DNA from: Ceratodon purpureus
Lineage: Eukaryota; Streptophyta; Bryopsida; Pseudoditrichales; Ditrichaceae
Assembly: GCA_014871385.1 (NCBI GenBank)
Contig: CM026424.1
Location: 19,931,321-19,995,320, forward strand
Direction: 5' to 3'
DNA: 64,000 nt
A program made the translations under genes and the position numbers. A model generated the notes under the pieces. That model saw only the letters and a program-made list of their open reading frames with translations. It was not told the origin of the DNA and did no database searches. Shown here piece after piece: positions 3,378 to 36,987 of this stretch (its first letter is position 1; each line of letters opens with the position of its first letter).

Positions 3378-3728
3378 CTAATTTCCAGTGGCCAGTAATA
3401 CCAGATCCAGCGCGGAACAAATCATCATGCATCCAAACCGAATCAAAAGAGCATAGCGCATTGAAACATCTTCAGGAGATTTAGAGGTCTGGATGACCTT
3501 GAGAGTTCTGGCCCTGCCATAGGCAATTATTGCATTCCAAATATAGTATCTATCCTTCTCGGTGCTCCAGACCGTGCCTTCAAACACGAATTTATTTCTA
3601 CGGATACATGAGCCCCATTCCCAAACTCTATTCAAGCCCATATTTATCAGCCAGATAGGAAATAGTATTTTGAGATCATGCTGATTGAAGGGGATCGACA
3701 GTATATAATTGACTGACGCTGGCGCCAC
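3378..3728 (-). other. Possible decayed coding segment at left side of element
   Basis: An open stretch of about 115 codons with a balanced protein-like composition, including the motif CIRRNKFVFEG and a Trp-rich lead-in. It begins at a copy of the palindrome and has no clear ATG start or splice sites. The Trp/Arg-Asn/Phe pattern is faintly like the region after the zinc knuckle of LINE-type reverse transcriptases, but this is weak. A related short duplication lies at 3,880-3,920: both copies pair the palindrome with the downstream word AAAGTCAGTTTG. Confidence 0.2.
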
Positions 3729-4620
3729 TCGTCCGATAAACAGAAATTATTAAAGTCAGTTTGTAAGAACTATGCTTCGGAATTGATGAACTCTCGGCAT
3801 GCATTCTGGTCGAAGCTAATAGGGCGTGGATTAAATATGATCTGTAATCATACTCGATGATAGGATTATAAAATCGATTGGCGCTGGCGCCACTCGTTAG
3901 AATTACAAAGTCAGTTTGCTCCAACATGCTTTGATCTAGATGACAATACATCCGTGGTCAATCAGTGGCAACCATCGACATCTTCCTGACCGGGCTAATA
4001 CAAATATCTCCGATCGTATTACAAAATTCAAAAATTGAAGTAGTGTTCACAATGCTAAGCATATTGTGGTCCCGAGACACTTATGCGCTGCCAATTCGAT
4101 GAAACACGCCTAAATATCCGCGGAAAAAAATCTAATGTGGATAAAACACTCTATCAACGGTACTAATGTATAAAGTTGATTCCACATGTACGCACCATCA
4201 TGAATTTACTCATCAACTCTCCGGCGCTTATTCAGGGAGGTCGGAGGAGAATCTCCATTCTCGACTGCGTCCCATCCCTGAGTCGCTGCGGGATTATATT
4301 CGCTGCTTGGACTGTCGTCGTCGTCTGTTGATACAACCGAAGCGTTAAAACAAATACATGATGGACTCATTTAATCACACACTAGTCTATGTGAATGATT
4401 TAAACAAACAGCGAATTGCACCATTGCTGCAGCCACCTGAAGAGGAGGTATCGCTGGATCCGCTTGTACTCGACTCCGACTCAACGATCGACGGGAAACC
4501 AAAGTTTCGCAGCCAGCAAGGAGGGAAAGGTTCTCTGCAGGACTGCCGGGAGCAATCCCGATAAACTGCCACACGAATGGCAAGACAGAATAGATGATAG
4601 TAGTGGCCACATGGAGAAAT

Positions 4621-5286
4621 CTACACTTCATTGGCAGGAAATCCGTGGTCGCACATTTCGCATCTCCGACCATCATCCGGGGCAGGAACTCTCGGATTGT
4701 GAATGCGCCGCGAAAGTTTGAGGTGAGTATGCTCCGCATAGCTATTCAGTGTCTCAAGCACCAAGTCGTTCTCAGCCTGAAGCTCGTCAAGGACCTCACG
4801 AAGATATGCTGTCTCACGCTCAGCCTCAAGAAGAAGTGCAAGTAGTGAGTTGAACTCATTGAAGCCAGGATGGTTGCGCAAGTTTGTCTCTGCACGAGAG
4901 CGCTCCCGTCCAAGCTCACCCATTTTCTCCCGGAGCTCTATCAAATTTGCTCTAGTCTCTCTCCTAACCTCCGGGTCAACCGTGGTCGCATCGATATTAT
5001 CCGCCTGCGAAATAGCGTCTTTCACACATTCAGCACATAGCACATACCGGCTGTATACGTCACGAAGAATTTCCTCTAGCTCAGAAATCTCACTACAGCC
5101 TTTACCCTCCTTTGGAAGAGAGGGTTTCTGCAAATTAAACTCGTCCCTCAACATACGCTCGCGCACTTCCGAGAGGGCTAGTGTCCTGCCGGCATCGTTC
5201 GCCAGCCGGCATTTGTGTGCCAAAATTGCAGATACCCGAGAAGGGCGAGGACATGGACTATTGCGCAGCGGTTGCCCACTCGACAT
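4621..5286 (-). CDS. Coiled-coil protein of unknown function
   Basis: A 221-residue frame starting at the ATG at 5286 (MSSGQPLRNS...). The frame is open upstream for 35 more codons, but that part is hydrophobic and unlike the rest. From about residue 45 on it is rich in Glu, Leu and Arg with heptad-like spacing (ISELEEIL, LIELREKMGELGRE, LLEAERETAYLREVLDEL), indicating long coiled coils. The C-terminus carries a Cys pair, CEMC. A weak GTGTAG donor at the end could splice to a Ser-rich tail reading to 4387 (motif VESESSTSGSSD), so the true C-terminus is uncertain. It lies inside the element, upstream in orientation of nothing recognisable. No family was recognised. Confidence 0.55.
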   Translation of the reverse strand: MSSGQPLRNSPCPRPSRVSAILAHKCRLANDAGRTLALSEVRERMLRDEFNLQKPSLPKEGKGCSEISELEEILRDVYSRYVLCAECVKDAISQADNIDATTVDPEVRRETRANLIELREKMGELGRERSRAETNLRNHPGFNEFNSLLALLLEAERETAYLREVLDELQAENDLVLETLNSYAEHTHLKLSRRIHNPRVPAPDDGRRCEMCDHGFPANEV

Positions 5287-6350
5287 ACTGAAGTGCAGTG
5301 TGATATCTAAATACAGCAAACTCCCAATCTGCAGAAATGTAACTGGACCGAGAGTGAAGCATGTAACTATGAGCAATATTTTGAGTAACACAAAGCTAGC
5401 AATTGAAGAGGGACCACTCTGAGCATGCGAGATTCAGGTATACAGTGCAAGAGATGGGAGTTTATGCAAGACATTGAGTTGCTTATATGCATCTCCAAGT
5501 TGAGGAAGCCGTTTGTAAAAGTAGTTGAGAAACTCGAATATCAACTACAAAATCTTACAGCAGATTGACGGAGCGGCGCCGGCGCCAACTGCCAGTTGCG
5601 AATAATAACAATCATTTATTGATGTTTAGCTCACCCCCAGTTTACCCCCAGAATTGATTTTGATTTAAAACGATACGAATATTGCGTGACTATTCATCAG
5701 AGGTTATGCCCTGGTCAGCAGTAGCTTAACTGCAGACTGCTGCAGGATAGTGTCTGTGGGAGGGACAGCGCTGAGTTGTAGATGAAACCTCTCTAAGAGA
5801 ATGCAGTTTAACCTGGTTTAAAGCTTAATGGCGCCGGCGCCATGCTTATGTTGTATCTAGGTTGTAAGTAATTCCGTCAGTAATCAATGTATTTTTTTTT
5901 GTGTACTATATCACTGTAAGACCTCAACGCATTTGCTCTTACAACAACCTTTCTGCATGCAGCAGAGTGATATCTATTCGTCCGGCTTGGAAGGAGACAG
6001 TTAATGAAATGGCTTATACTTGATAAGTTTATTCTGATAAAGCAGAAACTTGTGATTCAACCATCGGATAGAATATATTGGCACAGAAAGTAAAATAAAG
6101 TAGGCATCTATGTTCAGTTGAGCGAGATAGTAAGATAGGAGCTAAGTAAACATCCAATCTGGGAATGCAATTTCTTATGTAATGCAGCCAATGTAAGGCT
6201 AGAGTGAACAAATAGTGATACTGAGTTCTAAGACTGATCTACATAAACGTATAGAACTATCATTTAGAAAATGTTCTTATAATCATGGAATGAAGCGAAT
6301 TCTCCACTGGGAATTCTCTTGGCGCCCGCGCCATTTCTTCGGCCAAGTAT
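5287..6350. other. Intergenic, with three palindrome copies
   Basis: No coding stretch is supported. The interval holds palindrome copies at 5575 (exact), 5830 (exact, full 16-base form) and 6321 (one mismatch, GGCGCCCGCGCC). These lie between the coiled-coil gene and the 3' end of the transposase frame, both on the minus strand. Confidence 0.6.
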
Positions 6351-8285
6351 CTATCTCATGTGATTCATTCTCCAATTCTTGATGATCTCCTCCACCTCAG
6401 CCTGACTTAGTGTTGCCTGATGTGGCCTTTCATCATCAAGTGGTAATCCAAGGACAACGTTGTAAATGTGGTACATGTGTTTGCACGTCATGAAGTAGTG
6501 ACCATTCTTGGTATCTGCCACACTGCTTACAAAGAATGGACAGTTGCAAGCAGGTGTGTCACTAATGGTGACAATGTAGCTCACAGGTTTGTTGAAAGTT
6601 CTGGATACGGTATTCAGGGAGAAGCGGTATGTTCCAGAAACATGTTCCTCATCCATGAGACGGACTTGGGCAACCATCATTATCCCCTCTTTCCTACGAG
6701 AATTACCTGCGTCGGTCAGTGTTCTTCGATTTACTCTCTTACCGCAGCGTCGGCCAGGTCTCTTCAGTGGGTCATGGGGCGACACCTTACCCGGCGTGCT
6801 CAGGTCCATCTGATATCTTTGAGCTCCGATACCTGGGCTATCCCCTGTGTTTCCCGAGGTTTCCACCAATACGAACCTGACATTCCCCAGTCTAGCAGCC
6901 TCGATTGAAGAAAGCTGAGTCCCGTATTCAACAGGCCAGATTCTTGGAAGGGGTGGTGGCTTTGCTCCGCGAAGAAGCTGAACGTGATCTGTAGCAACAC
7001 AACCTCGCACGGAAGATCCACAGAACCAATATACTTGGAAACTTTTTTTGAAACGATGCTCCATCGTCCCGTAAAAGCTCGTCGCGGCGTGACTTGCATC
7101 TGGCCGCGGTTTGATGTTGCGTCCACAAGTATCCCATTGACCATTACGGAAGATCACAGCTGAGCATCTTGGATTCTCATTTTGTAGACATCTTCGGATA
7201 GCCCACTCCTTGTGATCTGTTTCTTTCTCAATGACAGGCAGACCGAACTGCATTGCATTTGTGGTATTATTGCCATTCATAGGATATGGATACGGAGTTC
7301 GATATTCAGCCCGCGGAGAACGCCAACAGTCAGAGTGTGGTTCCATTGGTGGTGGTGTCACGTGCTGTACACCACCAAAACCTTCGTGTCCAACGTTGAT
7401 ATTTCTGGTGAGCATACTGGTTTGTTCCTGGTACGGGTTAGAAGGTCCGTTTAAAAATTGAAACGGGTACTCACTAGCGTGCGCAAGATATTGCTCACTT
7501 GGGGGATGAGGATCCGAACCTGGAAACCTGAAATATTCGGAATGGGCAGCATCATTCGCGTTAGGAGGTCGAGTAGGCATCCCCTGTCGTTGGCTCAACC
7601 CTTGCATCATCTCCCTTGTGTGAGGCATGTAGTTCACCTGCCCTGATGGAACATTCGAATGGATCGACTGAGATGCGCTGCGATTTTGCGTCATGGGGAT
7701 CAGTGTTGGCGCCGGCGCCATAGCCCCCATGTGAAAAGTCTCGAATGCTCGAGTAGGCCGAAATGAATCTGGGTGGTTTGATGGCGCTGAAGGCAACCCT
7801 GAGGACCGAGCGGGTCGATATGAATCTGGGTCGTTAGATGGCGCTGGCGCCATCCCTGGGGCTCGACTGGGCCGATATGAATCTTGAGGGTTAGATGGCG
7901 CTGGCGCCATCTCTGCGGCTGATACATGGTTCTGACGATGCTGAACTGGATCCTCCCGTGAGTTTGTCCTTGGCGTTAGAGGGGAGTCGAAGAGGTTTCT
8001 CTGAAATGATGGAGGCGGTGGCGGTGTGGCAAATGTGAACCCTGCCTGAGTCATTTGATCAGGAGATCGAAACATGTCGGCTCCTTCGTTCGTTACCGGT
8101 CTCGATCTTTGGGCTTGCGAAGATGTGACTACTTGGGGTTGATGTCTGAGTGGGGTTCTGATGGATCGACTATCCTTGTCTGGCCTATGAGACCGTGCCA
8201 GCCTGCGCCGACCAGGACGTGAATGACATCTGAAACTCTGTGTTCTATCCAAATCGCCCTCTAAACCCAAACCCCGTGAATGAAA
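6351..8285 (-). pseudogene. C-terminal half of the transposase frame: Pro-rich linker and SWIM zinc finger
   Basis: This stretch is in the same frame as the upstream transposase, directly after the TAG at 8288-8286, and its first codons are not an ATG (8270 is TTG). A long Pro/Ser/Gln-rich linker contains three 19-residue repeats around 7735-7915 (MAPAPSN..DSYRP), two of which carry the palindrome as codons. Near the C-terminus (DNA about 6450-6570) is a SWIM-type finger, CNC followed by CKHMYH, the domain that usually ends MULE/FAR1-type transposases. The order DDE then SWIM supports one ancestral protein of about 1,518 codons. Alternatives are a separate gene or removal of the TAG by an intron; I found no splice pair that keeps the frame. 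Confidence 0.65.
7735..7915 (-). repeat. 57-bp coding minisatellite in transposase linker
   Basis: Three tandem 57-bp units each encode about 19 residues of the pattern (M)APAPSN-x-x-DSYRP-x-R. Two units hold the intact palindrome (7840, 7897), and in the third, near 7781, it has decayed to encode SAPSN. A further palindrome starts at 7708. Unit length is a multiple of three, so the frame is kept. Confidence 0.8.
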
Positions 8286-10907
8286 CTAGGTGCCTTCGAC
8301 TGCTGACTTCACCGCCATGGCTAGGCGCTCTGGTTTATAAGACCTTGCTGCGTTTCGCCACATCAATTCGGCTTTTGATGGTCCACGTCCACGGAGCAGA
8401 CCTTTGGATGCCGCCAAACAGAACTGCTGTTGTAGCAAAGATCTTGTCATGTCTTCCGCGCAAACTGTATATAAATCCATTTTAACCTTCAATCCACTTG
8501 CAGAAGTTGCCCACATCGAACTATGGACTGCTTCGCAGAGATTTGTGGTTGGTACAAGGGCTTCACTCTCCAGATCTAGGTCCAGTTCATTAAGATGATG
8601 ATAAGCAAAAAGCGTGCGCCGTGCCATCCATCATGTCATCCATGCCTGCATGTTTCGCAGATTGTCCTTGTGCACTGCGCCTGAGTTTGTCCAGAAATCC
8701 TCCAGTTCTAAAGCAATATCCCGGAATTCTTCGTTTGTTGGAGCAGCAGCCCATCTCTTGCACATCTCTACGTGGTGAGGGCGGTATTTCTCAAGGATCC
8801 ATTTATTCGTATGATCCCGAATGCTTTGAACAAAGTGAAAGTAGCAAGTTCGTAGGATTGGGTCACTGGGATTTGGAACTTGTTCATCGTCCTGGACATC
8901 GCCATCCAAACCCTCTGAATTTCCAAAGACCTTCCGGACTGCGTTATAATTTGCAGGTGCAGCGTCGGCCATAAACCCTTTGAATTTTGGCCGAGGCTGT
9001 CCACTTCGAACTACTGTCTCAATTAGTAACTCCCAAAACTTGACTTGGTTTTCGGTATTTTCCAACTTCATTTCACAAACTGCTATTGTCAGCAGCCTTC
9101 CCAAGTTGTGATCATATACATGTGCTGCCATGGTTGTCCACAAGTTCACACGCTTGATGTGGTCAAACATGATAAAGGAATCTCTGAGATCCCCGCACGT
9201 CATCCTTTTCACAAGGTTCACACCGCTACCAATGCCCACGGTTGACATTTTGAAAACAAACTGGATGCCATTATGGGACTGACCTGGGAAATGGCTGTCC
9301 TGAATAAAACTGTAGCGAGAGTATTTTTTCAACGCAAATATACACCTCTCTTGATCCGCCCTAAATTTCGTCACAACGTATTTGACCCGTCCCTTGTCGT
9401 GATATGGTGGCGCAGTTTCGAGAATCTCATGTAGCTGAGATTCGGTCATAAGTCGTTGCTCATCAACAGTGGTTGCCTGAATAATTAGGTCTAGGAAATT
9501 TCTGTGGGCACAACGAAATCCTACCCAACCGGGCGCATCGAGGAGCCAAGGGTTTTGATCAAGATACCTCTGAATAGTGACGGTCATGTTAGCATAAGCC
9601 TCTCGACTTCTACCTGGAGGTGATGGATGGCTATGTATGCCAGTATGCACAACCGCCCGAGTATAAATGTCTGATTCATGGTGAACAACCCAAAGTACGC
9701 TTGAACATTGCGACACACAAGTTGGAGTCCACCGGCAAAATGAGCACCTCCAGTCACCATCAATTGGAATACTTCCGGGCGTAGGCTTGGCCTGACAGCG
9801 GCCTTCCCAGTATAGCGTGTTTGGTGTTCCATGGAGAGTAAGATGGCTGCATTCTGAACTCCTGCAGATGAAGGATCCACTGCAGAACGATTTTCGAACA
9901 CGAAGGCCTGCGTCGTCTAAAATGTTTGACTTGTAACTATTGGACTTCACCCATGGATGAGGGTCGAATGATATATCCGTAGATATTGTATCGTCGTCAA
10001 TCAGTGGAGGGAGTTCGAAAATATAGTTCCCATCATAGACCATGGGAAGATAGTTGCATTTGCTCCGTGAAAATTCAGCAAACGGTAAGTACGCAAATTC
10101 TCCAGTACATCCACGGCTTGCCAAGCCCATTAGAAGGGGTAGTATAGACTTACTACCTGGATCCTGATGGTCTTCCTCTGTTGCACTCCTTCGAGTCCCT
10201 GCGCGCATGCTCGGGTATGAAATGTCCTCTAGTATAAATTCTTCGGCTCCCTCGGCCTCGGGTTCTGGGTCGCTTCCAGGAGCGTTTGTTGCTTGGCCCG
10301 CTAGTTCATCTTCGGGGGATTCGCTCCCAAATCGAGGCGATTCTGGCATGTCGTCATCAGCGGTAGGCCGCGATGTCACCGGAGAAAACTGGCCCTGAGG
10401 AGTGGAGGTTTCGTCAAGGCGTTCAATCGGGTAGTCTTCCAAGCTTAATGATCGTTGACCGTCTTGACAGGCTTGCGCTGCTGAAGATGGACCTTGAAAC
10501 TCTCTACTGCCGAACGACATCTGGCTACCTGTGCTGGTCGTGTCGACAGATGTATCGTCTAACTCAATAATATTGGTCGGTTTCCTTGCAACTATACCAG
10601 CTGTGAAGTCAGGCCGCGAAGGATCCGGATCCATCTCTCCAAAAACTATGTATGAGGCGCGGTCAACAACTGGCAAACTAAACATGGACTGACCTAGTTT
10701 ATCCTCGTGCCAAAACTCTCCTCTAAACGCGCCTTGTGAATCTATCCTCTTAATGTGGACAGTGCCCTCTTGCAAGCCGAATGCGAAGACTAGTTCTAGC
10801 TCTGGTATTTCTATATCAGCGTCAGAGGACGTGTATTTTAAATGTAACAACTCCCCCGCCAAGCGTAAGATCAGCTGGCTAGAGGTTGCCATTTCACTGT
10901 GACTCAC
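8286..10907 (-). pseudogene. MULE-like DDE transposase, N-terminal and catalytic part, interrupted by TGA
   Basis: From the ATG at 10907 the frame runs 758 codons to a TGA at 8633-8631 and then continues in the same frame to a TAG at 8288-8286. An acidic N-terminal region is followed by a Cys/His finger around residues 385-430 (CSFC ... HTGIHSHP), of the WRKY-GCM1/FLYWCH style found in plant MULEs. Next is a catalytic region: first Asp in FIMFDHIK (about residue 583), second in GFMADAAPANYNAV (about 649) with the following CYFH (the Cys..His of MULE transposases), and the Glu in TTNLCEAVH (about 792). That Glu lies beyond the TGA, so the stop separates D, D and E. This is best read as a recently broken transposase; readthrough or recoding is the alternative. 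Family assignment is by motif only. Confidence 0.7.
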
Positions 10908-11553
10908 TACAAATTACTAAGCAAATTGGGGAATGGGATGGGTGGAGTGTTGGACGTTTAGCTTCGAAATACTACAGACGCTGTAAGTCACGTCGATGTA
11001 AGTTTCTAAATCTCCTATATGGATTTCAGTTCGAGTTCGTTCAACAATTTCTAACGGGTTTTTGTGTAAGTAATGCCGAAGAATCACAAAAGCGCTCTTC
11101 CAAACGGTTAAATGTATCCTAACTGTAATGCTTCGCCGCCATATTGCAGATAATTAAATTACGTATCGCATCTGAAGAGCTCAACAGTAACATTTCCGGA
11201 TACTCAGCCGGGATCCACACTCGCCCAGGCTTTTGATCTAAACTACCGTCGGATGAGAACGATGGTCCAAACGGAACTCTGTGGCATTGATGTGTCACGA
11301 GTACAGCTTCTGATCTCAGGTATAAATGGAGGCGCTGATGTTGACCTTATCCTCAAGTCCACCATTGAGCACTCTCGTGAGCTCGTGTCATCATCGTGGT
11401 CCAACTTTGCTAGGGCAGCTCACTCTCTTGGTTTGATCACCACTCTTGTCAAACATTCCTGTCTGGTCATGCTTTTATCTTAGACACTTCTTTCAAGTTT
11501 TGCGTAGAGGATCCGCCGCTGGTTGGGGTTCGGTCGCTGTAGCGGTTTTCAGA
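10908..11553. other. Divergent intergenic region between transposase and ParB-methylase genes
   Basis: The 646-bp gap separates two divergently oriented genes and probably holds both promoters. A short open frame at 11253-11483 has no splice support or recognisable domain. No clear TATA box was identified. There is no palindrome copy in this interval. Confidence 0.5.
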
Positions 11554-14500
11554 ATGGGCAAGTCAAAGCGCAAATCTGAATCGGACAATGGTTTGCGCAA
11601 GAAGAAGCGGATGGGGTCTGTCACGCTGTGGCTTGAACGCGAGGTACGTGGTACAAGGATACATTACTTCAAGCGATGTCGCTAACATAGGTTGTGATGT
11701 GGTGTATGGCGCTGGCGCCATTTTGAGATTAGGGTAGGCTGTCATGTGGTAAAATGTGGTCATTCTGGGGACGAACGGGTATTGAGTACCTGTTGGGTCC
11801 CGATGTTATGCTTATGCGTATCCCTAACTCCAGTTTGATTTGGGGGAGGCCCTTTCCATTTCTCGGCATCCTATTGCTCTTAGGAACGGACATTGCGGCT
11901 TAGAATAGAATTCTCTGTAATAGTCTGGTAGTAACTGCTGGATTGCGTGAAATGCGATTTGATTGTTCTTATGACGTCTCGGATCCTTATGCATCCTGTT
12001 TTCGTTTATGTTATATACCTTAGTCCAATGCGCCGCACATTGCATTGTGTCGTCGTTCTTGGAGTGGATGGTGCCGGCGCCAGTAGGTACTTCACCATTA
12101 GGCAGGCTGTTTTTTTTTGTCTGAAATTATGTATTCGCGGCATTTGCTCATCCGGTTGGAGAGTTTAAAATTTCTCAGTCATGGTGACGGAATTCTTTTC
12201 TTCATGTGTCTCTCTTTGCTCGAATGATGTGCGCAGTCCCGTGGTCACCCTGATCCCTTTTCCATATTCTTCTCGTCCTTCTCGCTTATTATTCTCTCCA
12301 TTCTAGCTCTATTTTTGAAGTTTACAGAATTTAAAGTTTGCTTGAGTGCATCGGAGATTTCAAGCAGACGGTGCCGGCGCCATCTGACGTATAATGTGCT
12401 CTATGTTGGTAAATGTACTTTTATCGCCTTCGTTGAAGGATTCATTCTTCTGGCATTGGCCCTTCCCATTTTCGAATTTAGGGCATGCGCTGGTTGATAG
12501 CTTATTTATACACTGTTGGCCTTCGCAGAATAATGATCCGACCATTGACTGGGGGGAGGCCGAACCATGCAATGAGGACGATGCGTTCGAGAAGACCATT
12601 GATCGGAGCATCGACCTGAATCCAACTGTGACGTCCTTCGAGAAATTCCAAGAGACCTTGTTCGGCCAACTCAACATCAGCAAACACTTTGAGATACAGA
12701 AGATAAAACCCCTGCGTCTGGAGATTCCGCTGTGCAGGCTTAAACCTACGTCTTGGGTTCGCCAAGCTCTCCCTGCAGATGTGCAGACAGTGTACGATGG
12801 ATTCCACATCGGGAACTGGGGAACTAACTTTTGGGTTACTTGCTCCGGTAGCCCTGGGAAATATCCAGCGGAAGGATTTAAGGACGTGGCTCGATGGCAA
12901 TCCGTTTCGGATCAATTTGATAGTGAACTCCAAGAGCTTTGCAAGAGCGATCCTGGGAACATAGGAATGTACGAGAAGATGATCGGTCACCATGTGAATG
13001 TCTGGGATGGGAACCACCGAGCTCTAGCATGGATGAAACACATTCAAGACAACAATGGAGAGCCCATAAAGGTTAACTGCTTTGTTCTAAACGACAGTGA
13101 AGCAGATCGAGGCTGGATTTCAAATTTTATGCGGGACATCAACGAGTAAGTTTCGGTTTTTTTTATTTCCTTCTTGTCCTGTGGAGTGTCTATCAAATGC
13201 CGGGTTTGTGCTGTGAGTTTAGGGAATTCTCATGTCTTTTGCGAGTCACCTTGGTACGCTGCTGCCTAGCTCTATCCCATGTCCATGGTGGTGTTACTCA
13301 CAAAATGAAACATGATTGAATCAGCGGGACCTCGAATACCACAGTCAAAAAGCAGCTCGCCCACGTGCTGTATGAAGTGATGCAGATAGCTAAAAGGGAG
13401 CCAAAGGAGTACAGGCACTATTTTACCGAGCCAGAAATGGATCGAATTAACGATGTCTGCAAAGGGAGGTGGTACAACATGACTTGCGATGCCGTCACTG
13501 AAGTGTATTTCAAGGTCAGAATTTTTCTATTTTCTTGATACTTCGTGATCGAAGGGAAGTTTTGCATTTCTTATATTGCGTGAGTTTTGCGGTGTGGCCA
13601 TACTTTTTTGTGAGTGTTGTAAGAGCTTGCTCTCTATTTCCTAATTTTCGGATCCGACTGCCTCAGTCGCCTAGAAGTTGTATAGCGGTATTATGTACGG
13701 ATAGTACGTCCGAGTTGTAAAACTTCTTTAACCGGACAGTCCTATGGTTCTTTTGATTTCCATTTGATCGATGACTACGCGTATGATCTAGCTCGGCATG
13801 GAATTTTAAAGGTTTACATAATCGATCTTAGTTTGCTTCATTTCAGTCCTCACGAGCAGCACATGGGGCCAGCGCCATCTGCTCAGGTAGTTATAGAAGC
13901 ACGCGACTTTGATTAGTTCTGCTCTATTTTTGTGGATTATGTTGGAAATGTGTTTCGAATTATGCTGGTCTGAAACCTTTTAATGATAATAGTCCACTTA
14001 GTTTGCTTGATTATTCCACCGTCCCCCGGTTGTTGTTGCATTATGACCGATAGTATTTATATTTCCAGTTGACCGTATTGCTAAAGTTTTCTCCCCTATC
14101 CAGATCCGACAAGGTATTGGTTTGGCACTTGTGAATAGACTTAACCAGCAATATGTTATGCTGGTTTCCTGGATCAAGATAACGTCATCAATTAGCACTA
14201 CCTGTTCAGTTATGCACATACTTGGCTGCATTTTTTATTCCCGAGTGTCTGTATTCGTGAGGAAACGCGCAAATATTCTTTGTTTGCTATGATAAAAAGA
14301 ATGAAAAGTCTCTAACGGTTGGGGTTTGTGTAACCAGCGTGAGATAACATTGGCTGAGCGAGCAGGAGTGAAGGCCTTGAAGGATGATGTCCAAAATCCA
14401 ACGCCTCAGGAAATCGAGCAAGCAAAGTTTGACGGGGCTGCACCGATACGAAAGGAGAAGCTGGACTACATGAAAAAGATTTTCAGGCTTTGCAATCCAA

Positions 14501-17500
14501 AATATCACCCCCATCTCGCTGATGAGCTCGACGCACACATGCGCCAACCCCCTAGGAAGACAGGTGCAATGACAATCGACAACCTCGGCATTCTTGTTGG
14601 GGCACAAGGGGTGGACATTCATACAGTCTTGAAGCTTTGGAATGGGTCCAGTGCCGACAAAGAGAGGTATCACTTCCCCGACTCTGATTTCACGAGAGCA
14701 GCATTTCAAAAATGGTTGAATCGCAGGGCCTGGTGGGAGCAGGTACATCCTTAATCATTCGTAGAATGTTGGCTTCTTATCGATCCTCGGAGGATTACAA
14801 GAGAAATCTGAATTTGAATTGTATTTATTCTCCTGTAAACGTGCTCGTCCGAAGTTTGAAAGTTATTTATCGTTATACAAAGTCCGAGCAGAACTTCCAT
14901 GATATTTTCTTGTTATTTAACTGTGTAATCAACGTGAAATATGAACGTGAGACAATGCTCTGATTGGGCTGAAGACTGACCTACTAGATGCGTATATAAT
15001 TTGGCACAGATGGGCAAAAGGGCATTTGAGATAGTTACGGATTTGGTGAAGAAGTCTAAACCAGAAAAGGGGGTAGGAATCGTTCGGCCAGAAGAAGTTC
15101 GTCCCTTCTTTGACAAGTATTTCGACAAGGTTATGGTGTATGGTTTTCTCCAATTTTTTCCTGAGATCTTCAAACCTGACGGAGGACCTGTTCGGCACAA
15201 ATGCTGGGAGGATCAAAGTAATTACGACTTGGGCGAGAAGGCTGTCCGCCGGTTTGTAATGAGGTTTGTACGTTGGATTTGCGAGACGACTTCGTTGCTT
15301 CCGAGGGAGAGCGGCGATCTTAGTAAATTTCCCGTTTTCGCTGACTGGCTCCGGGTTAGTGAAGAAGGGGTTTATACTGCAGAGCAGATGTTCAATTTCG
15401 ACCCACCACATCTTAAATGGCTTGGTTGGTACATCGAAAACTTTCCGGATGTACAGGGCTTCATGGATGTGAATGATGAAGCCATTCTTAGCTGCGTTAT
15501 TAAGGAGATTGAATCCGTAGAATCTGCGCCGTTCTCGGAAAAGGCCCAGGCTCTTGAGGCGACACTCGAGGAATTCAAAGATTTGGCGAAGGCAGAGGGC
15601 GACGAGGATTCAGGAGATAGCACGGTAGTTCCATCCTCTACACTGCTTTCTGCGTTATCGGGTAGGCAAAACGCTGTGTACGTTCCTATAACTAACTCTG
15701 GGACTTACTCCACTCATTACGGTCCCATATTGTTTACTGAGCTGCAGGAATTGATTGCCCAGAAAACCGGGAGGGAAGTCCCCGTTGATCAATCGCAGAT
15801 TCAGGATGCTAGTGGCATCATTGCAAATGTTCTGGCGGAAGTCATGAATGTTCCCTCTTCTGTTCACGAAGAAGGCAATACCAAAATCGGGAGCGATGGT
15901 CGAGAGGTTGCCAGTTCTTCACACTCGCACGACTTAAGACCCAGGAATGTCCCGCAAGAGGGAACGGATAAAGATGTGTTGCTTCCGAATTCCTCACTTC
16001 CCGGCACATCACAGCGTAAGCAATCTTCTAAACTTGGGAAGAGCCGTTCTAAACCAGAACCTGGAAGACTGTTACCCGAAAAATACGAAGCCCAGAAGAT
16101 TGAGGGCGTCGCTCCCACGATTAAGTTATCTATGAACTACTCATTCGCTAGCTTTGTTGAAGGGATGAAGCGATCAGATTTCAATACCTTACTTGGCGCT
16201 ATCAAGCAGGTGATTACACTTTGCTCCAATTGATCCACCAAAAATCGTGTCGACCTGGATATGCTACCGAACGGGAACTAACGACCTGCTGTTTGCTTTT
16301 GTTGTAATATATTGTCTGAGTGTTTTGTTATAGTGTTCTGATAACCGATATTGCTCGTGGTTTTAAGGTCACGAATAGGTCACGTCATTCAGATCGTATG
16401 GTTGGTTCGTACTTCATTCTAGGAGTCGGCGCCGGCGCCACTAGTCTCTTTTGTGTATTTGAGTCTTGTTTCCGTCCTTTATATGTCGTGAATTTCATAT
16501 CCTTAATATATGGCCATGAACAATAGGTTACGGACCTGCTGTTTCTGGTTGTACTATGTATAAAACGTGATAAGAATGTAGTATGATTTCCCTTGTTATT
16601 GTCATCTGGCGCCGGCGCCGGTTCTCCCTGGGTCTCGTGGTAGTCATCATTCATTCAGTCTTACAGTGTTCAACTTGCGCGCGATCTCGATTTTTTTTCT
16701 GGAATTTCCGATCGACCATCTTTAGAAGTGATTTATATGGCCTTCTTTGGATACTTTGCTTAAGATCATTGATAGGTTGGTTATGATTGTCGACTGCTCG
16801 CATTGCTGTGAGCCTGTGTGGTCAATATTGGCATTATTCGAGTTTAGTTGGTTACCTACTGTATTGGAATGGCGCCGGCGTCAACTGACATGTCAACCAT
16901 TGGCTGATCATTTTTGTTTGTATCATTATCGTAGATTAATGGTGGAACGCTTCGTCAGCACAACAGAGTATGGAGCCCGCATTGTGTTGATCTTATTGTG
17001 TGTGACACCCCTGACAATAGCCCGGTTCCAGATGTTGAAATTAAAGGGAAGTTCGAGACACCTCCGTGGAACATGGTTAGGCGGACTACCTTCCCTGCCA
17101 TATTTCATGCCGCGGAATCGTTGCTTGCGGATACAGGTTTTATCCTACTATTTGTACCTGCCGAGGAGCAGCCGACATTGATGTCTCCCAGCTGGGCCAG
17201 CAACTGGGAATGTATGCGGACCTTTTATGTCATCAACCATAGGCCATTTTTTCCGAGATGGGTATGCCTCATCCACTCTCGCTATCCTAATTTATTAATT
17301 GTTCGTGCTCATTTTTAATTTGCATACATTGTGTTCATATTTTCTTTGTTTAAACTTAGTCTGTTGTGTGTGATGACTTCAGAAGCGTCTCTTTAAAGCG
17401 AAGGTGCTAAGGCGAAGATCCATGAGTCACATGGAATTCCGATTTAATGAAATTGCGAGTAAAGTAATGGATTGGAATCCTGAATCGTCGGATGTGCTGG

Positions 17501-17967
17501 AGAATGTTGTGACGGATGTTAATCTGCTTCGGTGCAAGGAAACCGTGTCATATCGAGGGTCGAAACAAAAGTCTCCGGCTTTTATGGAATCGATGATAGA
17601 AATCTGCACTGGGAAAGGGAGCGCTGTACTTGACCTAACAGGCGGAATCGGTAAGGATCTAGTTAATATACTGAGTATTTATAAGTAAGGACTATCTAGA
17701 AGGTAACTAACGACGCGTTCGTTTTTCACAGGATCATCTGTCCGGGCTTGTGAGCTAAGTGGCAGACATGTACTCGCCTTAGAGGAAGACGAGGACGCTT
17801 ATAATATGTGTCTAAATGAATTCCCAGTCAATCGCGCCCACGACAAGGGATTGGAGGATAATCGGATTCTAACCTTGCAGCAGCACTTCGCAGAGTTGGA
17901 CGGACAATTCTCTCAATCAACTTCGCAAGCTGCCCTGAGCGGTAGTTCACATGGATTGGCTGATTAA
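11554..17967 (+). CDS. ParB-like domain fused to DNA N4/N6-methylase-like domain (8 exons, 1,110 aa)
   Basis: Exons by GT-AG sites: 11554-11643, 12529-13145, 13325-13514, 14338-14742, 15010-16209, 16935-17261, 17383-17650, 17732-17967. All codon phases agree across the seven introns. Residues 1-30 hold basic clusters (KSKRK, RKKKR) resembling a nuclear signal. Residues about 55-235 are ParB/sulfiredoxin-like, with VWDGNHRALAW (about 188-198) matching the family's D-G-N-H-R box. Residues about 300-834 are an unrecognised middle region. The C-terminus has VDLIVCDTPDN (motif IV position, about 858) before VLDLTGGIGSS (SAM-binding motif I, about 1027), the permuted order of beta-class N4/N6 DNA methylases. 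Motif IV is DTPD instead of DPPY, so catalysis is doubtful. The role is inferred: DNA binding and modification linked to the element. Confidence 0.82.
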
Positions 17968-18205
17968 AGGGCGATATTAGGAATAGAATCATGTGCCGGT
18001 GTAGAATCTTAGATTCACAGTCACATTTTGATGCACAATCGAGACTACTGAGAAGTGCAATGCACTGTGTTTGTACCTCTAATATTCTATACAATACACA
18101 AAACTTGAGCCGAATTCAAAATCAGGTTCATTGCGTGCTGAAAGTTTGATTTGCCCAATCATGTCCTACAAAATTTAATTTAAACCTGCTTACAAGCTAT
18201 GCTGC

Positions 18206-18701
18206 TCACTCCTCACAGTCTGTGTCACTGACTAGACCAACCCAATACTTTGAAATCATCTCATAGTCCTTCACTGAATCACCTGTTTCAGTTCCTGCTT
18301 CGCTGCCTGGCTCCATCGTAGCTGATTGCTCAATGTAGTTCGGTCGATCCTCAGTCCTTGGAGACATGGGTAGGCTCAATTGTTCTTCACCGTCCGTGGT
18401 TTGCATCCAAGGCGCATGCGCTATCGAGCGATCGAGACGCGAATGCCATACACAGCTGCATTCTGCACAATTTCAAAATCATCATTAGGAAACGAAGTCT
18501 GACCAATCTGATTCGGCTGAAACTGTCCATTGAAATCGCATTGAAACACGTACAGTCGAGAGGTTCATACAGATTGAAGTTACCTGCACAACTGAAATCG
18601 AATGTCCTCCTACTCCTTGCCCTCTGCTTCGCTCCCCAGTACAATGTGGAGCGACTTCTCCGCCTCGGAGCCTTCCTAAATCTTCGCCTGGGAGTCGCCA
18701 T
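18206..18701 (-). CDS. Small two-exon basic/acidic protein, unknown function (124 aa)
   Basis: Exon 1 is 18701-18584 and exon 2 is 18462-18206. The donor G|GTAACT and acceptor TGCAG give matching phase. The N-terminal exon is highly basic (PRRRFRKAPRRRSRS), followed by a Cys/Trp/His-containing stretch (CAECSCVWH), and the C-terminal half is acidic, ending in VSDTDCEE. The charge split suggests a nucleic-acid-binding head and acidic tail, which is inference. It faces the ParB-methylase gene tail to tail, 238 bp away. No family was recognised. Confidence 0.6.
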
Positions 18702-19273
18702 TAGGTGTGACGTAGAGCAACCTCTGGAGTCTGGCTTCTACTCCACTCTTGAGATCAAAGTTAGCTGATGGGACGTATTGTATGGACTGCATTGCGCTCC
18801 TGTTTATGAGAGTATGCAGTAATGAACTTGTACAAGACGGCCAAAAGTAGGGCATGCACGTTGTCCAAGGATAGCAATGCCCATTATGAAGGATGCGCCA
18901 ATATCGTCTCTCGATTGCACTGGTTTTTGTGGATCTGATCTCATATCGTTTCTTTCAGAGAATTTATGTCGTGTGCCGCGTGCATTTATATACCATATCG
19001 GCAATTTCAAGTAAATGTAATAAAATGGTAGTATGGTTGAGTTTTTAAACGTAGTTTGTTAATCAAATTAGGTCATTAACCTGTAGTCGTAACTGATATT
19101 TTATAGCCTGTGGACATGGTGTAATTGCTTTTTGACGTCGTCTTCCTTGGCCATTTTTGAGACCTGGGATCACATAGATAAATTTCAAAGTTGCTGGTAT
19201 CATTGCACCAGGTCCCTTGTCTCTGTCGTTTCTGTTTTTCGTGCTTTTTTGATTTTGAAGTCTTGTAAGTTCA
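18702..19273. other. Intergenic region inside element
   Basis: The 572-bp gap lies between two divergently oriented element genes. No coding or palindrome copy was seen. It probably carries both promoters, but I could not identify specific sites. Confidence 0.4.
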
Positions 19274-19918
19274 ATGGCCAAGAAGCACTCAACTTCGGTT
19301 CCGTCAACCTTGCTTGTTAATTTAACATCTGGAGATACTCCATCGAAGGGTCATATTATGGACGCATTGATGGTTGGAATGGCAACGCGGTGGGTTGATT
19401 ACATCCCTGGTGCGCAGATTGTCTCTGATGAAGGTGATAGTAGCGACTCCGATTTCGAACCAAATCATGATTCCCTTGTGCCGAACTCCTCCTTGGGCCC
19501 TCGATGGTTTCGATCACTATCTTTCAGTAGATTGATGAAACTCTTTGCAGAGATTCTTCCCCTGTTGGATCCTTGCCCGGACGAGTCGTTCCCGTGGTCA
19601 TCGGTCTGCAAGGGAGTAAGCGCCGATAAGTTTCCTTATCATCCGCACTTCATGTTGATTAGCGGAGGGAGTTTTGGGCCAGTTTCCGACCAAGTATCGC
19701 TTTACTTAAATCGAAATTGGGAATCGCTTCCCGCGATGCAGGTGCTCGTCTCGAGACAGGTCAAAGGAAGCCTCGGTATGCAAGTCCTTCATTTTTGGCA
19801 GCTTGACCATATTGCGAGACGTTGGATCCACCGAGGTACCGGAAGATATTTGGTAACTCACGAGAAGGGCTGGGAAGAACTTGAGATTCAGGTCACTCAC
19901 TCCAGCCGGGACGAATGA
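19274..19918 (+). CDS. Unknown protein of the element (214 aa, single exon)
   Basis: The frame starts at the ATG at 19274 (MAKKHSTSVPS). An acidic patch lies around residues 52-65 (DEGDSSDSDFEP), followed by a denser, Trp- and aromatic-rich region (GPRWFRSLSFSRLMKLF; HPHFMLISGGSFGP; HFWQLDHIARRWIHRGTGRY), suggesting a folded domain of about 140 residues. No catalytic signature was recognised. It is the last gene of the element on the right side and is followed by palindromes at 20137 and 20313. An upstream exon is possible but not needed. Confidence 0.55.
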   Translation: MAKKHSTSVPSTLLVNLTSGDTPSKGHIMDALMVGMATRWVDYIPGAQIVSDEGDSSDSDFEPNHDSLVPNSSLGPRWFRSLSFSRLMKLFAEILPLLDPCPDESFPWSSVCKGVSADKFPYHPHFMLISGGSFGPVSDQVSLYLNRNWESLPAMQVLVSRQVKGSLGMQVLHFWQLDHIARRWIHRGTGRYLVTHEKGWEELEIQVTHSSRDE

Positions 19919-20911
19919 TCGACTACAAGGTTGCTACATGCGGCCAATACCCCGTTTTTTGCTATTCCGTCTAACTTGTTTCGTTTGCCTGTGTTAAAAT
20001 CGGAGTATTGCATACCGCTTTTAACGAGTTCATCAGATCTCTGATCATGGATTCCTTTTACCTTCTTTTTTAGTCGTTTGTTCACTTGTTGGTGTTCGAT
20101 CCGATAATTTCTGTTTTCGGGAGTATTTAGTCGAGTGGCGCTGGCGCCAGTAAGGTTGCTTGTATCCCGGATTCAAAGGTTTAGCTTGATTTTGGCTTCG
20201 TACGGTCACTTTTCTAGAATCTTTTGTCATAACTTTCCCGATTTTTGTCGGTGATTTGTATCTTGCTGAGTCGGCAAAAATGATGCTGCAATATCATTTC
20301 GTATTTGCATATGGCGCCGGCGCCACATGATTATTTTGAATGGTTCGATTGATTCGTGTAAGTTGTAATGACTGGTTTAGTGCTTACGGAATATGGGTTT
20401 GTGTGATGGACTTGTAACCATTTATATTTTGGCGAATTAATTACGATGGTTATGCTTTTGGGATTTAAGCAATCTTTGTTAAGAAACCCCTATATTTTGG
20501 GTGCATATATCTCTTGATATTCATTCTCCAAAGCCTTAGGGCAAAATTGTTTTCCGATAAAATTGCATTCCGCATATCTATTTTTGTCATCTTCACTGGT
20601 TGCTGAGATCTTTCCTTGAGAACACCAGTATCACGGGTGTATTGTTGTGTCGCGGAATGACGTATTTGTACGTTTCTTGTATTTGTACGTATAGTATACT
20701 GGATGATTTTCATCAATACTTTATGTTTTCATCTTTCTTGTATGCGACTGTATCAGTACTTGGTGTGTACAGGTATAAGTCATCAGTGCTGGACGAATGT
20801 CCGATTTCGTTCGCCTTGTTTTTTCTGCTACGTGTCTTTTCTGTCAGACAACCTGGCAGTTGCCAGGTCTACACGCACTCCGAGTGGCACACTCTGAAAC
20901 GCTCTTCCCCT
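19919..20911. other. Right flank of element interior, two palindromes
   Basis: No supported gene. Palindrome copies are at 20137 (GGCGCTGGCGCC) and 20313 (exact). Base composition is mixed but less AT-rich than the DNA after 21.04 kb. Confidence 0.5.
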
Positions 20912-29198: not shown

Positions 29199-30415
29199 AT
29201 GGCAGCAACCGTCGCCATGGCTACTTCATCTTTGGTTGTGGCTCCAGTAGTTGCAAACAAGTTGTCCTCGTCGGCAGCTCTGGGTGGAGCTCAGGTCCAG
29301 TTCGCTCCCATCTGCAACGTGAACGTTAATGGTGGCCGTGTTGTGGCCGTGACCGCTAGCCACTCGGAGGTATGCACATTCTCTTCTCCGATTTTCTTTT
29401 CGAATGCAATAACATGTCAGATTATTCGCTATTCCCTGTGACTGTTTTTCTCTGCTCACTGCAATTTTGAGTTGCACAGCCCTTTCAGAGTCTAAATTAT
29501 GTGAGCTGATGTTCGTGATTCAGGAAGAGACATCTGTAACAAGGAAGGTGTTGAGCTCTGTTCTGGCAACTGGGTTGGCCATCAGCTTGGCTGGGTCGGC
29601 ATTTGCGGCCTCTGGTCCGGGTGGCGATGGAGCTGAGCGTACTGCACGCAAGGCAGATGAGTTGCTGCAGGGCGCAGATGCATTGATCAAGAACGACTCG
29701 CCCCAGCGCTTCGGCCCTGAGCGAGGATTCGGTAACGGAACAGACAAGGCTGATGAGGACCGCTTCTCCCAGAAGTAAGAATGCACCATAACTTTCTTGT
29801 CTCCAGAACGCCATAGCCGCTCTTACTAGCAACCAGCCTGATCTATAGAATTGGCATTGTGTTTTAATGCACTTAATTATGCTTCTCCCTGCGACGCTAC
29901 GGCATTGGGGCTTAACAATGCCAGTGCTAATTTTCTCTACCTCTGGCGAAGACAAGTGAGCTAAATTATATTGTAATTTCCCTTCATGCAGGGCCGGAAG
30001 TGGAGCCATTCCTGAGCTTCAGGATGCGACCAGTGCCCAGGTGTCTGGAGCTCGCGACAAGTTCGCTTCCAATGTGAAGAAGACCCAGCGCAGAATCGAC
30101 GGAATCTGGGGCATGGGCAAGGGCATGGCCAACGATGTGGTTGCTACCGCACAAGGTAAGGCTGACGATGCCGCCAAGGGCGCCAAGAAGGCCTTCGGCC
30201 AGGCCGCCAAGAACACCGTGGCCTCGAACGTGAAGAGCAGTGCTGGAAATGTGGCAGCAGATGTGAAGAGCAAGGCCGACGAGGTGGCGGCGCCCGTGAA
30301 GAGCAGCTCGGGAGGGTTCTTCGGGAAGATCAAGCAGCAGGCGAAGGGCATTCAGGGCGCTGTGGCGTCGAAGGGCGCAGATGTGCAGAATGCCATTCCC
30401 AACGTTGGAAAGTAA
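29199..30415 (+). CDS. L1: thylakoid-lumen LEA-like protein (281 aa, 3 exons)
   Basis: Exons 29199-29369, 29524-29774 and 29992-30415 join in frame. The first 57 residues are Ala/Ser/Val-rich with almost no acidic residues, typical of a chloroplast transit peptide. They are followed by a second hydrophobic signal, RKVLSSVLATGLAISLAG, ending SAFA before Ala-Ser-Gly, typical of a Sec-type thylakoid transfer domain. The predicted lumenal part has a conserved block (GDGAERTARKADELL, RFGPERGFGNG), then an Ala/Lys/Asp/Gly-rich helical tail with repeats such as SSAGNVAADVK, like LEA group proteins. The closest paralogues are L2-L5. A protective role against desiccation or light stress is inference. 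It retains the first intron but has lost the intron in the last exon that L5 keeps. Confidence 0.9.
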
Positions 30416-31640
30416 ATTCTACTTTGAATCTTCCGTCAGCGCCACTGTCAGTCGAAGAGGCACGAATTTGTATGAGATGTCTGACGTTGAGTTAGACGTA
30501 AACCCGGTTTTGGAGAGTTGTACACTATTCTGTCATCTTTTCTGTGCAAATTGTATAGAATCTTCTATCCCCGAGAAAGTGAGTCTTGGGTGATGGAAAG
30601 CACGAGCAGGTTGTAAATTGCGTCTTTGAATATAATTATCTTTCTCAGAACGACGATTGTTGTTGCATTTTCTGAGCCATTTTGCAGTGCTGTTTGAATC
30701 TTCTGGCTTTGTTCTTCAACATCGTCACCCTTTCATTCACCTAACTTACACGAGCCTTCGCGTATCACGTAATGCGTGCTTTCAGTTTTTTTGTTTTTCA
30801 ACGGGACTATCCAGCAAGAAAACACACATGTTTTACTGACGCGGCCACAAACTCATCACAGCCTATATAGAGCATCACATAGAGCATCGCATATTTCGCA
30901 TTAGGCGGTCAAGTGCGCATGCATCTCCGAGTATGCCAGTAGAAAATGGTCGGACCTATGGTGTCCTTCAATTGAGAAATAATCATCTCTGTAATATAAG
31001 CTCAGGATTTTTCGAGTAAAGATTTTGGCATCGTCAATTCAATCTACACTAGTTTCCAAGTACTGAGTAAAATCAACAAAGATACCATCTTGGCTGAAGT
31101 CTTGGTTGTAAAAAATTGTGATCTGCCATATCAGCGCTACACAGAACATGAAGAGCTAAGCATTCATTTTGGTTAGTCCTACTGTAAGATACATCGGAAT
31201 CACCAAGATAAAAACCACTCTCTACTTGAAATTACACTGCAAAATATCCACAAAAACCTGAGTGTTCTATACTGCAAATCAATTCAGGTTTTAATCAAAC
31301 TTCATTAGTAGCATAACATTGCAACAGGCTAGCGTATGTCAACACCCATTGAGAAGAAAGATAGTGAATCAGAGTCAACTTGTATTTTCAACTGCAAGGC
31401 TATCACCACAGCTGCACAAACTTCACGAAATGGATCAAGGTACACCCAAGTGTACGAAGATTATGAAAAAGCACAATGATGTTCGGCTGCGAATAACTAC
31501 GATAAGTGCAGGCCGTATACCAGAAGGTGCTCGAGCCCAACGAATGTTCTCAGATTCGCCGTGCAGTCGACCTACTAATGCAAAAGTGCAAATCCATATC
31601 ATTTCGTCACCAAGTTCAATTGTCTGACAGTCAAAAGCAG
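30416..31640. other. Intergenic L1-L2
   Basis: L1 3' UTR and spacer. From about 31430 the sequence resembles the L3 upstream region (words such as CCAAGTGTAC, AGATTATGAAAA, ACGAATGTTCTCAG), showing that promoters were duplicated with the genes. No other gene seen. Confidence 0.6.
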
Positions 31641-31642
31641 CA

Positions 31643-31780
31643 GCCAAGTGGCACTTCCTGAGCACTTCCTACCACAAGCACAATGAACGTGGAGTATGAT
31701 CACTGGCACAATCTTCAAATGTGTCTAGCGGCGCAGATACATCTGTGAATTGTCCTACTTGGCCTCGCTGTGCTATAAAT
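31643..31780 (+). promoter_or_regulatory. L2 promoter module
   Basis: CCAAGTGGCAC at 31643, ACGTGGA at 31687, CACTGGCACAAT at 31701 and TATAAAT at 31774. TCAAAAGC lies just upstream of the first element. The spacing resembles L3 and L4. Confidence 0.65.
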
Positions 31781-31956
31781 TGGGTTCGAACCACTTGTCT
31801 ACCAACAATCTCATTTCAATTCACAGCGTCAAACCAACCATCTTCTTGTGCCATCTCAGAAACCATTCTGTCTTTGAAGTACTGTAACTGCTTCCGAACC
31901 TTTCTATTAGACTTTGTGATAGCCTCAGTTCTTTACAAGTACCACTTCTCTTTACA

Positions 31957-32992
31957 ATGGCAGCAACATTGATGGTGTGTGGTTCTGTGGTCGCTGCTCC
32001 TTTGAGCGCTACCACATTGTCCTCGTCTGCGGCTTTCGGTGCATCGCAGACCCAGTTCGCCCCGGTTTGTAATGTGAGCAGCAATGGTGGTCGCGTTGTG
32101 GCTGTGAAGGCCAGCTATTCTGAGGAGGAGTCATCTGTCTCGAAGCGGGTGTTGAGCTCTGTTCTGGCGACTGGGTTGGCCATCAGCTTGGCTGGGTCGG
32201 CATTTGCTGCTTCAGGCCCGGGTGGGGATGGAGCTGAGCGTACTGCGCGCAAGGCAGATGAGTTGCTGCAGGGCGCAGATGCGTTGATCAAGAATGACTC
32301 GCCCCAGCGCTTCGGGCCGGAGAGAGGGTTCGGAAACGGAACAGACAAGGCTGATGAGGACCGCTTCTCCCAGAAGTGAGTATTGAGTAATCTCACCTTC
32401 GTTTGCAGAATCATGGCGATGGATCGATGGAAGGTTTAGAAGAAATATGATTTGATTATTTGTTAGGGTATACATGCAGAGATGGAAGGTTTAAACTCCT
32501 ACTCAGCGTTTTTCTTACTCGATTTCTTCGTGCAGGGCTGGAAGTGGAGCCATTCCTGAGCTTCAGGATGCGACCAGTGCCCAGGTGTCCGGAGCTCGTG
32601 ATAAATTCGCTTCCAATGTGAAGAAGACCCAGCGCAGGATTGACGGAATCTGGGGTATGGGTAAGGGCATGGCTAACGATGTGGTTGCCACCACTCAAAG
32701 CAAGGCTGACGATGCCGCCAAGGGCGCCAAGAGAGCGTTTGGCCAAGCCACTAAGAACAGCGTGGCCTCGAACGTGAAGAGCAGTGCTGGAAATGTGGCT
32801 GCGGATGTGAAGAGCAGTGCTGGAAATGTGGCAGCTGATGTGAAGAGCAAGGCGGACGAGGTGGCGGCGCCCGTGAAGAGCAGCTCGGGAGGGTTCTTCG
32901 GGAAGATCAAGCAGCAGGCGAAGGGCATTCAGGGCGCTGTGGCGTCGAAGGGTGCTGATGTGCAGAGCGCCATCCCCAACGTCAGAAAGTAA
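31957..32992 (+). CDS. L2: thylakoid-lumen LEA-like protein (291 aa, 2 exons)
   Basis: Exons 31957-32375 and 32536-32992. The first intron of L1 and L5 is absent, with SYSE and EESS now contiguous. The targeting regions and lumenal block match L1. The last exon carries an in-frame duplication of the 11-residue unit SSAGNVAADVK, making this the longest copy. The sequence ATTKNSVASN-type segment groups it with L4, whereas L1 and L3 share AAKNTVASN. Same predicted lumenal role as L1. Confidence 0.9.
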
Positions 32993-34031: not shown

Positions 34032-34165
34032 CCAAGTGGCGCTTCATGGGCACAGTCGAAAAGCACATTGAACGTGGAGCAATCTTACAGGAACAATCTT
34101 CACATTCATCAAGTGGCACAGATTGCCATGGAACTTGTCCTACTTTCCATCGCTGTGGTATAAAT
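34032..34165 (+). promoter_or_regulatory. L3 promoter module
   Basis: CCAAGTGGCGCTTC at about 34032, GAAAAGCACA near 34058, ACGTGGA at 34072, ACAATCTTCA near 34096 and TATAAATT at 34159. Confidence 0.65.
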
Positions 34166-34327
34166 TGAGCTCGAACACGAACGTCTCCATCAGTTTTGAG
34201 TCTTCTAACAATTTTCCTCTCTTGCTCTCAAAGCAGTCTTCTTCTCGCGATTTTTGAAAGTTTCAGTGTGCATCTCTTCCTACACTCTCATTTCCTGCGC
34301 TATCTGGAACAACCCACTCTCTTCAGA

Positions 34328-36357: not shown

Positions 36358-36460
36358 GTGTCATCCCTTGCATCCACCAAGGCTTGTGGCTCACCCATCC
36401 GCTTTTCGACCCAGCTCGTGACCCATCCCACAAAAGAACAAAAACAGAAGAACGGGAAGT
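36358..36460. repeat. Inverted copy of the element's right-terminal segment (copy B)
   Basis: Begins GTGTCATCCC and matches the reverse complement of 20912-21012 over roughly 100 bp. Similarity stops after GAACGGGAAG. It may be a solo end or remnant of a second, deleted copy of the 18-kb element or of a shorter relative. Confidence 0.7.
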
Positions 36461-36540
36461 TACACCAGCAACATGTCATACATCCTTTTCATCGAACCCT
36501 CCACGTACACAGACTCACACACACTCAGGAACACTCCTAA

Positions 36541-36804: not shown

Positions 36805-36987
36805 TAAAGCATTTCTGACGGACAAATTGGTGTGCTGTGAAAGGCGACACTTCCAGCACTTCACAAGTATCTCAGGCCATTGGATCTTTGCTGCATCCCC
36901 CGATGTATGTCCTCCAATTCTCTGCGCACTCGACATCGACCACTCTTCAAAATTGCAAGCGCGTGTGTGACAATCACAAAGTGCAAG

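Follow-up and report, generated by a model that had tools for sequence, protein, structure and literature searches.

Fusions of a ParB-like domain with a DNA methylase, like the ParB-CTPase fold itself, are described from phages and bacteria (PMC12704722, PMC5512222). The Sola1-1_Ec32 transposon of Ectocarpus encodes a ParB-like/DNA methyltransferase protein, which was proposed to bind and modify its own transposon, and green and red algal cases are cited in the same report (PMC12477816). Proteins that act on their own elements are also represented by the anti-silencing protein VANC21 of Arabidopsis, which binds the motif YAGTATTAY in non-coding parts of VANDAL21 (PMC5735166).

We found a land-plant, MULE-type variant of the algal proteins in the moss Ceratodon purpureus. 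The window, i.e. the whole stretch of 64,000 nucleotides that was analysed (C4:19931321-19995320), comes from an assembly of 362 Mb in 151 contigs, one of which measures 110.5 Mb. The ParB-methylase gene that it contains is carried as an accessory by a large DNA transposon, whose MULE/IS256-like transposase is encoded on the opposite strand. As far as the description of Sola1-1_Ec32 goes, the two systems share a ParB-like part and an N4/N6 methylase in about 1100 aa, a transposon of about 20 kb and the opposite orientation of the transposase gene; compared in this way, by description only, the moss element differs in having a MULE/IS256-like rather than a Sola transposase. The moss protein also has an atypical motif IV, a motif that lies outside the algal description used for the comparison. 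In the phage and bacterial fusions, a ParB-like part is likewise joined to an N6_N4 or adenine methylase and linked to mobile elements, whereas in the moss protein a long middle region separates the two parts, the gene is interrupted by introns, and motif IV is changed. The first-pass annotation of this DNA knew of no such fusion in plants. A search of the literature on ParB, methyltransferases, mosses and transposons, mostly openly accessible papers, gave no moss report among the titles listed, but the fusion was already present in algal transposons (PMC12477816), so that the domain fusion itself is not new. Transposon-borne ParB-methylase proteins are thereby extended from algae to a moss.

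The gene lies on the plus strand and is real. Its eight exons join in silico, through seven GT-AG introns and without internal stop, into an ORF of 1110 aa. Exon 1 (11554..11643) encodes a basic N-terminus and is present in the copies C8b, C8a, C1 and C11 described below. Exon 2 (12529..13145) encodes the ParB-like region, with DGNHR at 13006-13020, and exons 3 (13325..13514) and 4 (14338..14742) are matched in other copies. Exon 5 (15010..16209) corresponds to a fast-evolving middle part, exon 6 (16935..17261) contains the methylase motif IV, DTPD, at 17004-17015, exon 7 (17383..17650) the start of motif I (DLTGGI), and exon 8 (17732..17967) the end of the methylase domain and the stop. In the protein, DGNHR occupies residues 190-194, DTPD residues 858-861 and DLTGGIGSS residues 1027-1035. 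Both the joining in phase and the location of these motifs agreed with the first-pass annotation. The predicted splicing is supported by conservation, since the frame was intact and the exon borders matched in all seven genomic copies read (the window copy and six others), and by an independent annotation of C. purpureus, P0001 (M758_11G066700, 1084 aa), which is 77% identical with 97% query coverage. The acceptor position of exon 2 varied slightly among copies, the exon 5 donor of C7 was modelled as GC instead of GT, and in C9 and C7 exon 1 could not be placed. A pseudogene was ruled out by the stop-free eight-exon ORF, intact in each copy read. Protein searches covered 5.8 billion sequences, candidates being pre-limited by shared words and length. 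With the 1110-aa protein as query, P0001 was the sole match at E<=0.001 among 7996 candidates scored, and a four-sequence profile again gave P0001 alone among 5555 candidates. No viral-contig relatives of the ParB-methylase were confirmed.

P0001 matched the genome in at least 80 places, which we grouped by hand into at least 34 loci on 10 contigs. Among the matches listed, 18 of the 20 exon-5 matches with an assigned locus were stop-free and 2 contained a stop. Contamination, which the first-pass annotation had already discounted, was rejected on account of these loci, the many copies on chromosome-size contigs, the intact copies and the introns. The seven copies read were those of the window, C8b, C8a, C1, C11, C9 and C7; they are not all independent, since C8b is a 98-99% duplicate of the window copy. 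Exon 2 was 69-76% identical to that of the window in five other copies (alignment A6), and exon 7 showed 81-94% identity in five diverged copies. VWDGNHRA and CDTPDN were identical in all seven copies and in P0001; right after the former, C7 has I in place of L. The dN/dS ratio (NG86) was 0.05-0.09 for the ParB-like region, 0.03-0.07 for exons 3-4, 0.18-0.33 for exon 5 and 0.03-0.05 for the methylase, these ranges being those of the computable pairs (saturation affected 11 of the 40 domain-pair values, each of which involved C9 or C7). The ParB-methylase gene is under purifying selection.

The ParB identity of exon 2 is suggested by its GNHRALA motif and by weak profile matches. GNHR, invariant in the seven copies and P0001, corresponds to GxxR, the P motif named for the ParB-CTPase fold in PMC12704722. 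A ParB-like partition protein profile (phrog_1033) matched five of six exon-2 proteins over about 40 residues with E values of 0.08-0.25, the window's own protein being the exception. The sequences LxPxxWVR ahead of the GNHRALA box and NFMRDIN behind it presumably resemble ParB boxes, and we take them as a lead. Other PHROGs scored equally well or better on exon 2; phrog_34256 (function unknown; 0.0044 in one copy, better than the ParB PHROG) and an Rz-like spanin PHROG (0.035) were judged to be chance or uninformative matches, as were TehB and TUTase (E 0.009-0.7). No ParB match was found in Pfam up to E 1 or E 10 or in NCBIfam up to E 10, searches in which the HMMER filters drop most matches above 0.1. 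Alignment to F-plasmid SopB with hhalign had a probability of 2.8%, and the ParB part alone matched phages and plasmids at E 2 or worse only. An AlphaFold model of P0001, built with five window exon pieces (6-row alignment), had a pLDDT of 31. Of the first-pass proposal of a ParB-like domain, the motif and the weak PHROG matches remain; Pfam gave no ParB match.

The C-terminal domain derives from an N4/N6 methylase. PF01555 (N6_N4_Mtase) was the only Pfam family with E <0.001 in the protein (window protein, E 7.5e-5 and 23.2 bits, below the 26.7-bit cut-off); four of four members matched, with a best value of 4.1e-5. PHROG DNA methyltransferases gave best E values of 1.3e-5 and 6.2e-6 in separate searches. 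DTPD precedes DLTGGIGSS, a permuted order that is co-linear with a Flavobacterium phage DNA methyltransferase (P0002; E 5e-6, with 24.7% identical residues in an alignment that covers 91% of the 229-aa query). Pfam (sub-threshold), PHROG and the phage alignment concur with the permuted methylase read by the first-pass annotation.

The transposase gene (6351..10913, minus strand) contains two in-frame stops in the window, leaving ORFs of 760 and 644 aa (8631-10913 and 6351-8285). In five of the seven copies the gene is uninterrupted from stop to stop (1482-1718 aa), and in C8b two overlapping ORFs of 815 and 742 aa take its place. A search with an 872-aa piece gave 15 homologues, whose aligned parts share 28-35% identity with it. 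Fourteen of them, tagged lgn, ena or jgi only, are probably metagenomic; the fifteenth comes from the liverwort Riccia sorocarpa. One of ten homologues scanned (P0004) had a SWIM zinc finger above the cut-off. The model of P0004 (mean pLDDT 53), used for its one strong fold match only, had the ISCth4 transposase (6xgx) as top and sole PDB match at E<=0.001 (probability 0.99); P0004 has the SWIM finger in addition to this shared fold. ISCth4 is, we assume, a member of the IS256 family. From this fold match and the SWIM finger, the transposase is provisionally called MULE/IS256-like; the Pfam MULE model matched neither it nor the scanned homologues. No viral-contig relatives of another homologue, P0012, were confirmed.

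Three further conserved segments accompany these two genes: ORF1 (4621..5433, minus strand), coding for a coiled-coil-like protein conserved between copies; an inter-copy block at 18193..18744 (no strand assigned), which could be a further gene; and ORF4 (19259..19918, plus strand), aligned in C8b, C1, C8a and C11. In these four copies, ORF1, the transposase gene, the methylase gene, ORF4 and a right-terminal block all align collinearly with the window, and C9 and C7 align partially. Six of seven copies, all but C9, have an ORF of at least 180 aa where ORF4 is expected (in C7 by position only). The right end of the element lies at 20895..20909 (plus strand), where homology to the C8 copy stops; with C8b the stop is sharp, at window position 20909, and the flanks beyond are unrelated. 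A right end was located in five copies. Leftward, the C8b duplicate matches the window down to its first base, and the left end probably lies outside the window. MULEs make target-site duplications of 9-11 bp and have terminal inverted repeats, which are absent in some of them; neither feature was found in the DNA read. The first-pass annotation had spoken of the element's own DNA, and the gene is indeed borne by an element, of which that annotation had missed the transposase gene and the dispersed palindrome described below. ORF1 of the C11 copy (L029:2846-3793) had a sub-threshold RING-like C-terminus. In C1, C11 and C8a, extra conserved blocks and palindromes extend to about 6 kb left of ORF1. 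Blastn did not match them to the window, and further genes may belong to the complete element.

A short palindrome is associated with the element. Its consensus, TGGCGCYGGCGCCA, was found at 13-20 sites per element in all seven copies; none of 40 dinucleotide shuffles had more than one site. For GGCGCYGGCGCC with at most one mismatch, the window has 32 strand matches, all within 3715-20324 (shuffles, 0.07). With at most one mismatch to GGCGCCGGCGCC, seven sites span 3880..7908 (3880, 5575, 5830, 6321, 7708, 7840 and 7897), the last three of them within the transposase ORF, where they encode MAPAP-type peptides. Six lie in methylase introns (11708, 12070, 12370, 16428, 16608 and 16871; span 11708..16882), and a subterminal pair starts at 20137 and 20313 (span 20137..20324). 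Positions 3715 and 13865 each have two mismatches to the palindrome. A 57-bp tandem repeat occupies window 7756-7915; there, as in the transposase ORF of other copies, palindromes form MAPAP-type repeats in a low-complexity linker.

By the same threshold, the seven copies hold 114 sites, of which 58 are intergenic, 35 in methylase introns and 21 in the transposase ORF. Methylase exons had none in 23.2 kb, as against the 35 in 21.5 kb of methylase introns; the 21 sites in the transposase ORF show that they can also lie in coding DNA. Some of the intergenic sites of C9 and C7, where exon 1 was not located, are probably in intron 1. No site was present in 25.5 kb of right flanks of the five copies with a homology-set end; C9 and C7, whose right border was set just past the last site, were excluded from this count. 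Sites persist in C9 and C7 despite little non-coding alignment to the window. On contig C1, by hand count among the matches listed, 27 of 50 exact sites were within 25 kb of one of the four methylase loci known there (a uniform spread would give 0.4), the other 23 lay farther from any known methylase locus, and 46 of the 50 were in clusters. One cluster on this contig without a known methylase locus (L046, C1:695001-705000) has four palindromes at 8298-9013, three of them exact and two 174 bp apart like the right-end pair. In the 10 kb read, element proteins had no match and no ORF reached 200 aa; the cluster is possibly a diverged or non-autonomous relative, and it neither supports nor excludes the link between palindrome and element. 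With the sites masked, the observed/expected CpG ratio was 0.84-0.94 in the seven elements vs 0.45-0.80 in right flanks; methylase introns alone gave 0.73-0.98, the C1 introns (0.73) falling below the C1 flank (0.80). A high ratio may be what low cytosine methylation would leave; youth or base composition could do likewise.

Comparison with VANDAL/VANC, as described in PMC5735166, shows in both cases a MULE-type element with an accessory protein and a short motif in introns and intergenic DNA; the moss motif is repeated in the element's non-coding parts, with 93 of 114 sites intergenic or intronic. The moss effector differs by its methylase and ParB-like parts, and 21 of the 114 sites are in the transposase ORF. 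VANC targets vary between related elements, whereas the moss palindrome is common to copies about 60% identical in protein. The main text of PMC12477816 lacks the string 'palindrom', and no dispersed palindrome is mentioned in its description of the algal element; a full-text literature search with GGCGCCGGCGCC gave no moss or transposon title among the matches listed.

Our leading explanation, to which we give about an even chance, is that the element recognises its own DNA at the dispersed palindromes, as VANC proteins do. The protein, with its basic N-terminus, would be imported into the nucleus and act on members of the transposon family to which it belongs, with the palindromes as putative loading sites. 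These would be engaged by the ParB-like domain, of which GxxR is the nucleotide-pocket motif, or by the helical part behind it. The methylase-derived C-terminus would then mark, or merely cover, element DNA, and host silencing methylation might be kept off or replaced. We lead with self-recognition because the palindrome is dispersed and conserved. It is also favoured by the seven intact ORFs, the low dN/dS and the invariant CDTPDN and VWDGNHRA, by sites that exceed shuffles, outnumber the reversed word genome-wide, are absent from methylase exons and from the right flanks of the five copies with a homology-set end, survive in C9 and C7 where little non-coding DNA aligns and lie in part near methylase loci, and by the higher CpG ratio of elements than of flanks and the VANC precedent. 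It is weakened by the 23 of 50 C1 sites away from known methylase loci and L046 without an element gene (both among the matches listed), by the 21 sites in the transposase ORF, and by the weak ParB homology, the pLDDT of 31 and a motif IV without aromatic residue. A more specific form, tentative and rather doubtful, resembles ParB-parS: an NTP-gated clamp would load at family palindromes and spread, and the altered methylase would be a SAM-dependent reader or shield against silencing. The palindrome supplies a candidate recognition sequence, which is retained where the alignment of surrounding non-coding DNA is lost and can be counted across the genome. With TGGCGCCGGCGCCA as candidate site, gel-shifts, ChIP-seq and methylation calling from long reads become direct tests of how transposons discriminate self from host DNA.

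Because the elements read carry their genes together, the partner of the palindrome could instead be the transposase, ORF1 or ORF4. The palindrome might serve these proteins in synapsis or autoregulation, the ParB-methylase acting elsewhere or at the ends only, a minority possibility in our judgement. DNA transposases often bind subterminal repeats, and all seven copies have, near their right side and right of the genes, the palindrome pair, spaced 176-187 bp. However, sites occur throughout the element, also within introns and at a distance from the right end, and end binding alone would not need them.

Under self-recognition the C-terminus may or may not transfer methyl groups. An active N4-cytosine or N6-adenine methylase marking the palindromes themselves, like a bacterial modification enzyme, would agree with the phage methyltransferase match over most of the query and with the kept motif I region; we consider it unlikely. 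The usual catalytic motif IV is (D/N/S)PP(Y/F/W), in which an aromatic residue is expected for base stacking. The moss sequence is DTPD in the seven copies and P0001, opposite DLPY in the phage protein, and the aromatic residue is missing in each copy read. For this reason we call the domain methylase-derived rather than an active methylase. The loss suggests weak or no methyl transfer, and since DTPD is invariant, motif IV seems to be under selection. Of the N4/N6 methylase signature in the first-pass annotation the origin of the domain holds, with an atypical motif IV; its suggestion that the protein methylates or marks the element's own DNA is reasonable as to marking and weakened by DTPD as to methyl transfer.

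A G+C-rich, self-complementary 12-mer could also have a structural role (as a hairpin, nucleosome or replication signal) that involves none of the element's proteins. This appears improbable, since the reversed word, likewise palindromic and of the same composition, was 39 times rarer genome-wide (24 vs 938 exact 12-mers), and the flanking bases are conserved: in the strand-symmetrised consensus the 12-mer is preceded by T (86%) and followed by A, and its central CG is partly TG or CA.

That the gene is a domesticated host gene merely adjoining a transposon, its frame being intact while the window transposase is broken, is highly improbable: it occupies at least 34 loci, near-identical copies lie at unrelated sites and end abruptly on the right, and the order with the transposase is conserved.

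Elsewhere in the window, a transposase fragment matching DDE_Tnp_1_7, which we take to be of piggyBac type, was found at 42452-42910 (minus strand; Pfam E 5.5e-10). An ORF at 58898-59767 (minus strand) had a sub-threshold match to the AP2 domain (27 bits vs a cut-off of 33.3). At 29497-38294, similar gene copies are arranged in tandem with two alternating ORF types; one of the copies has a weak apolipoprotein-like match.
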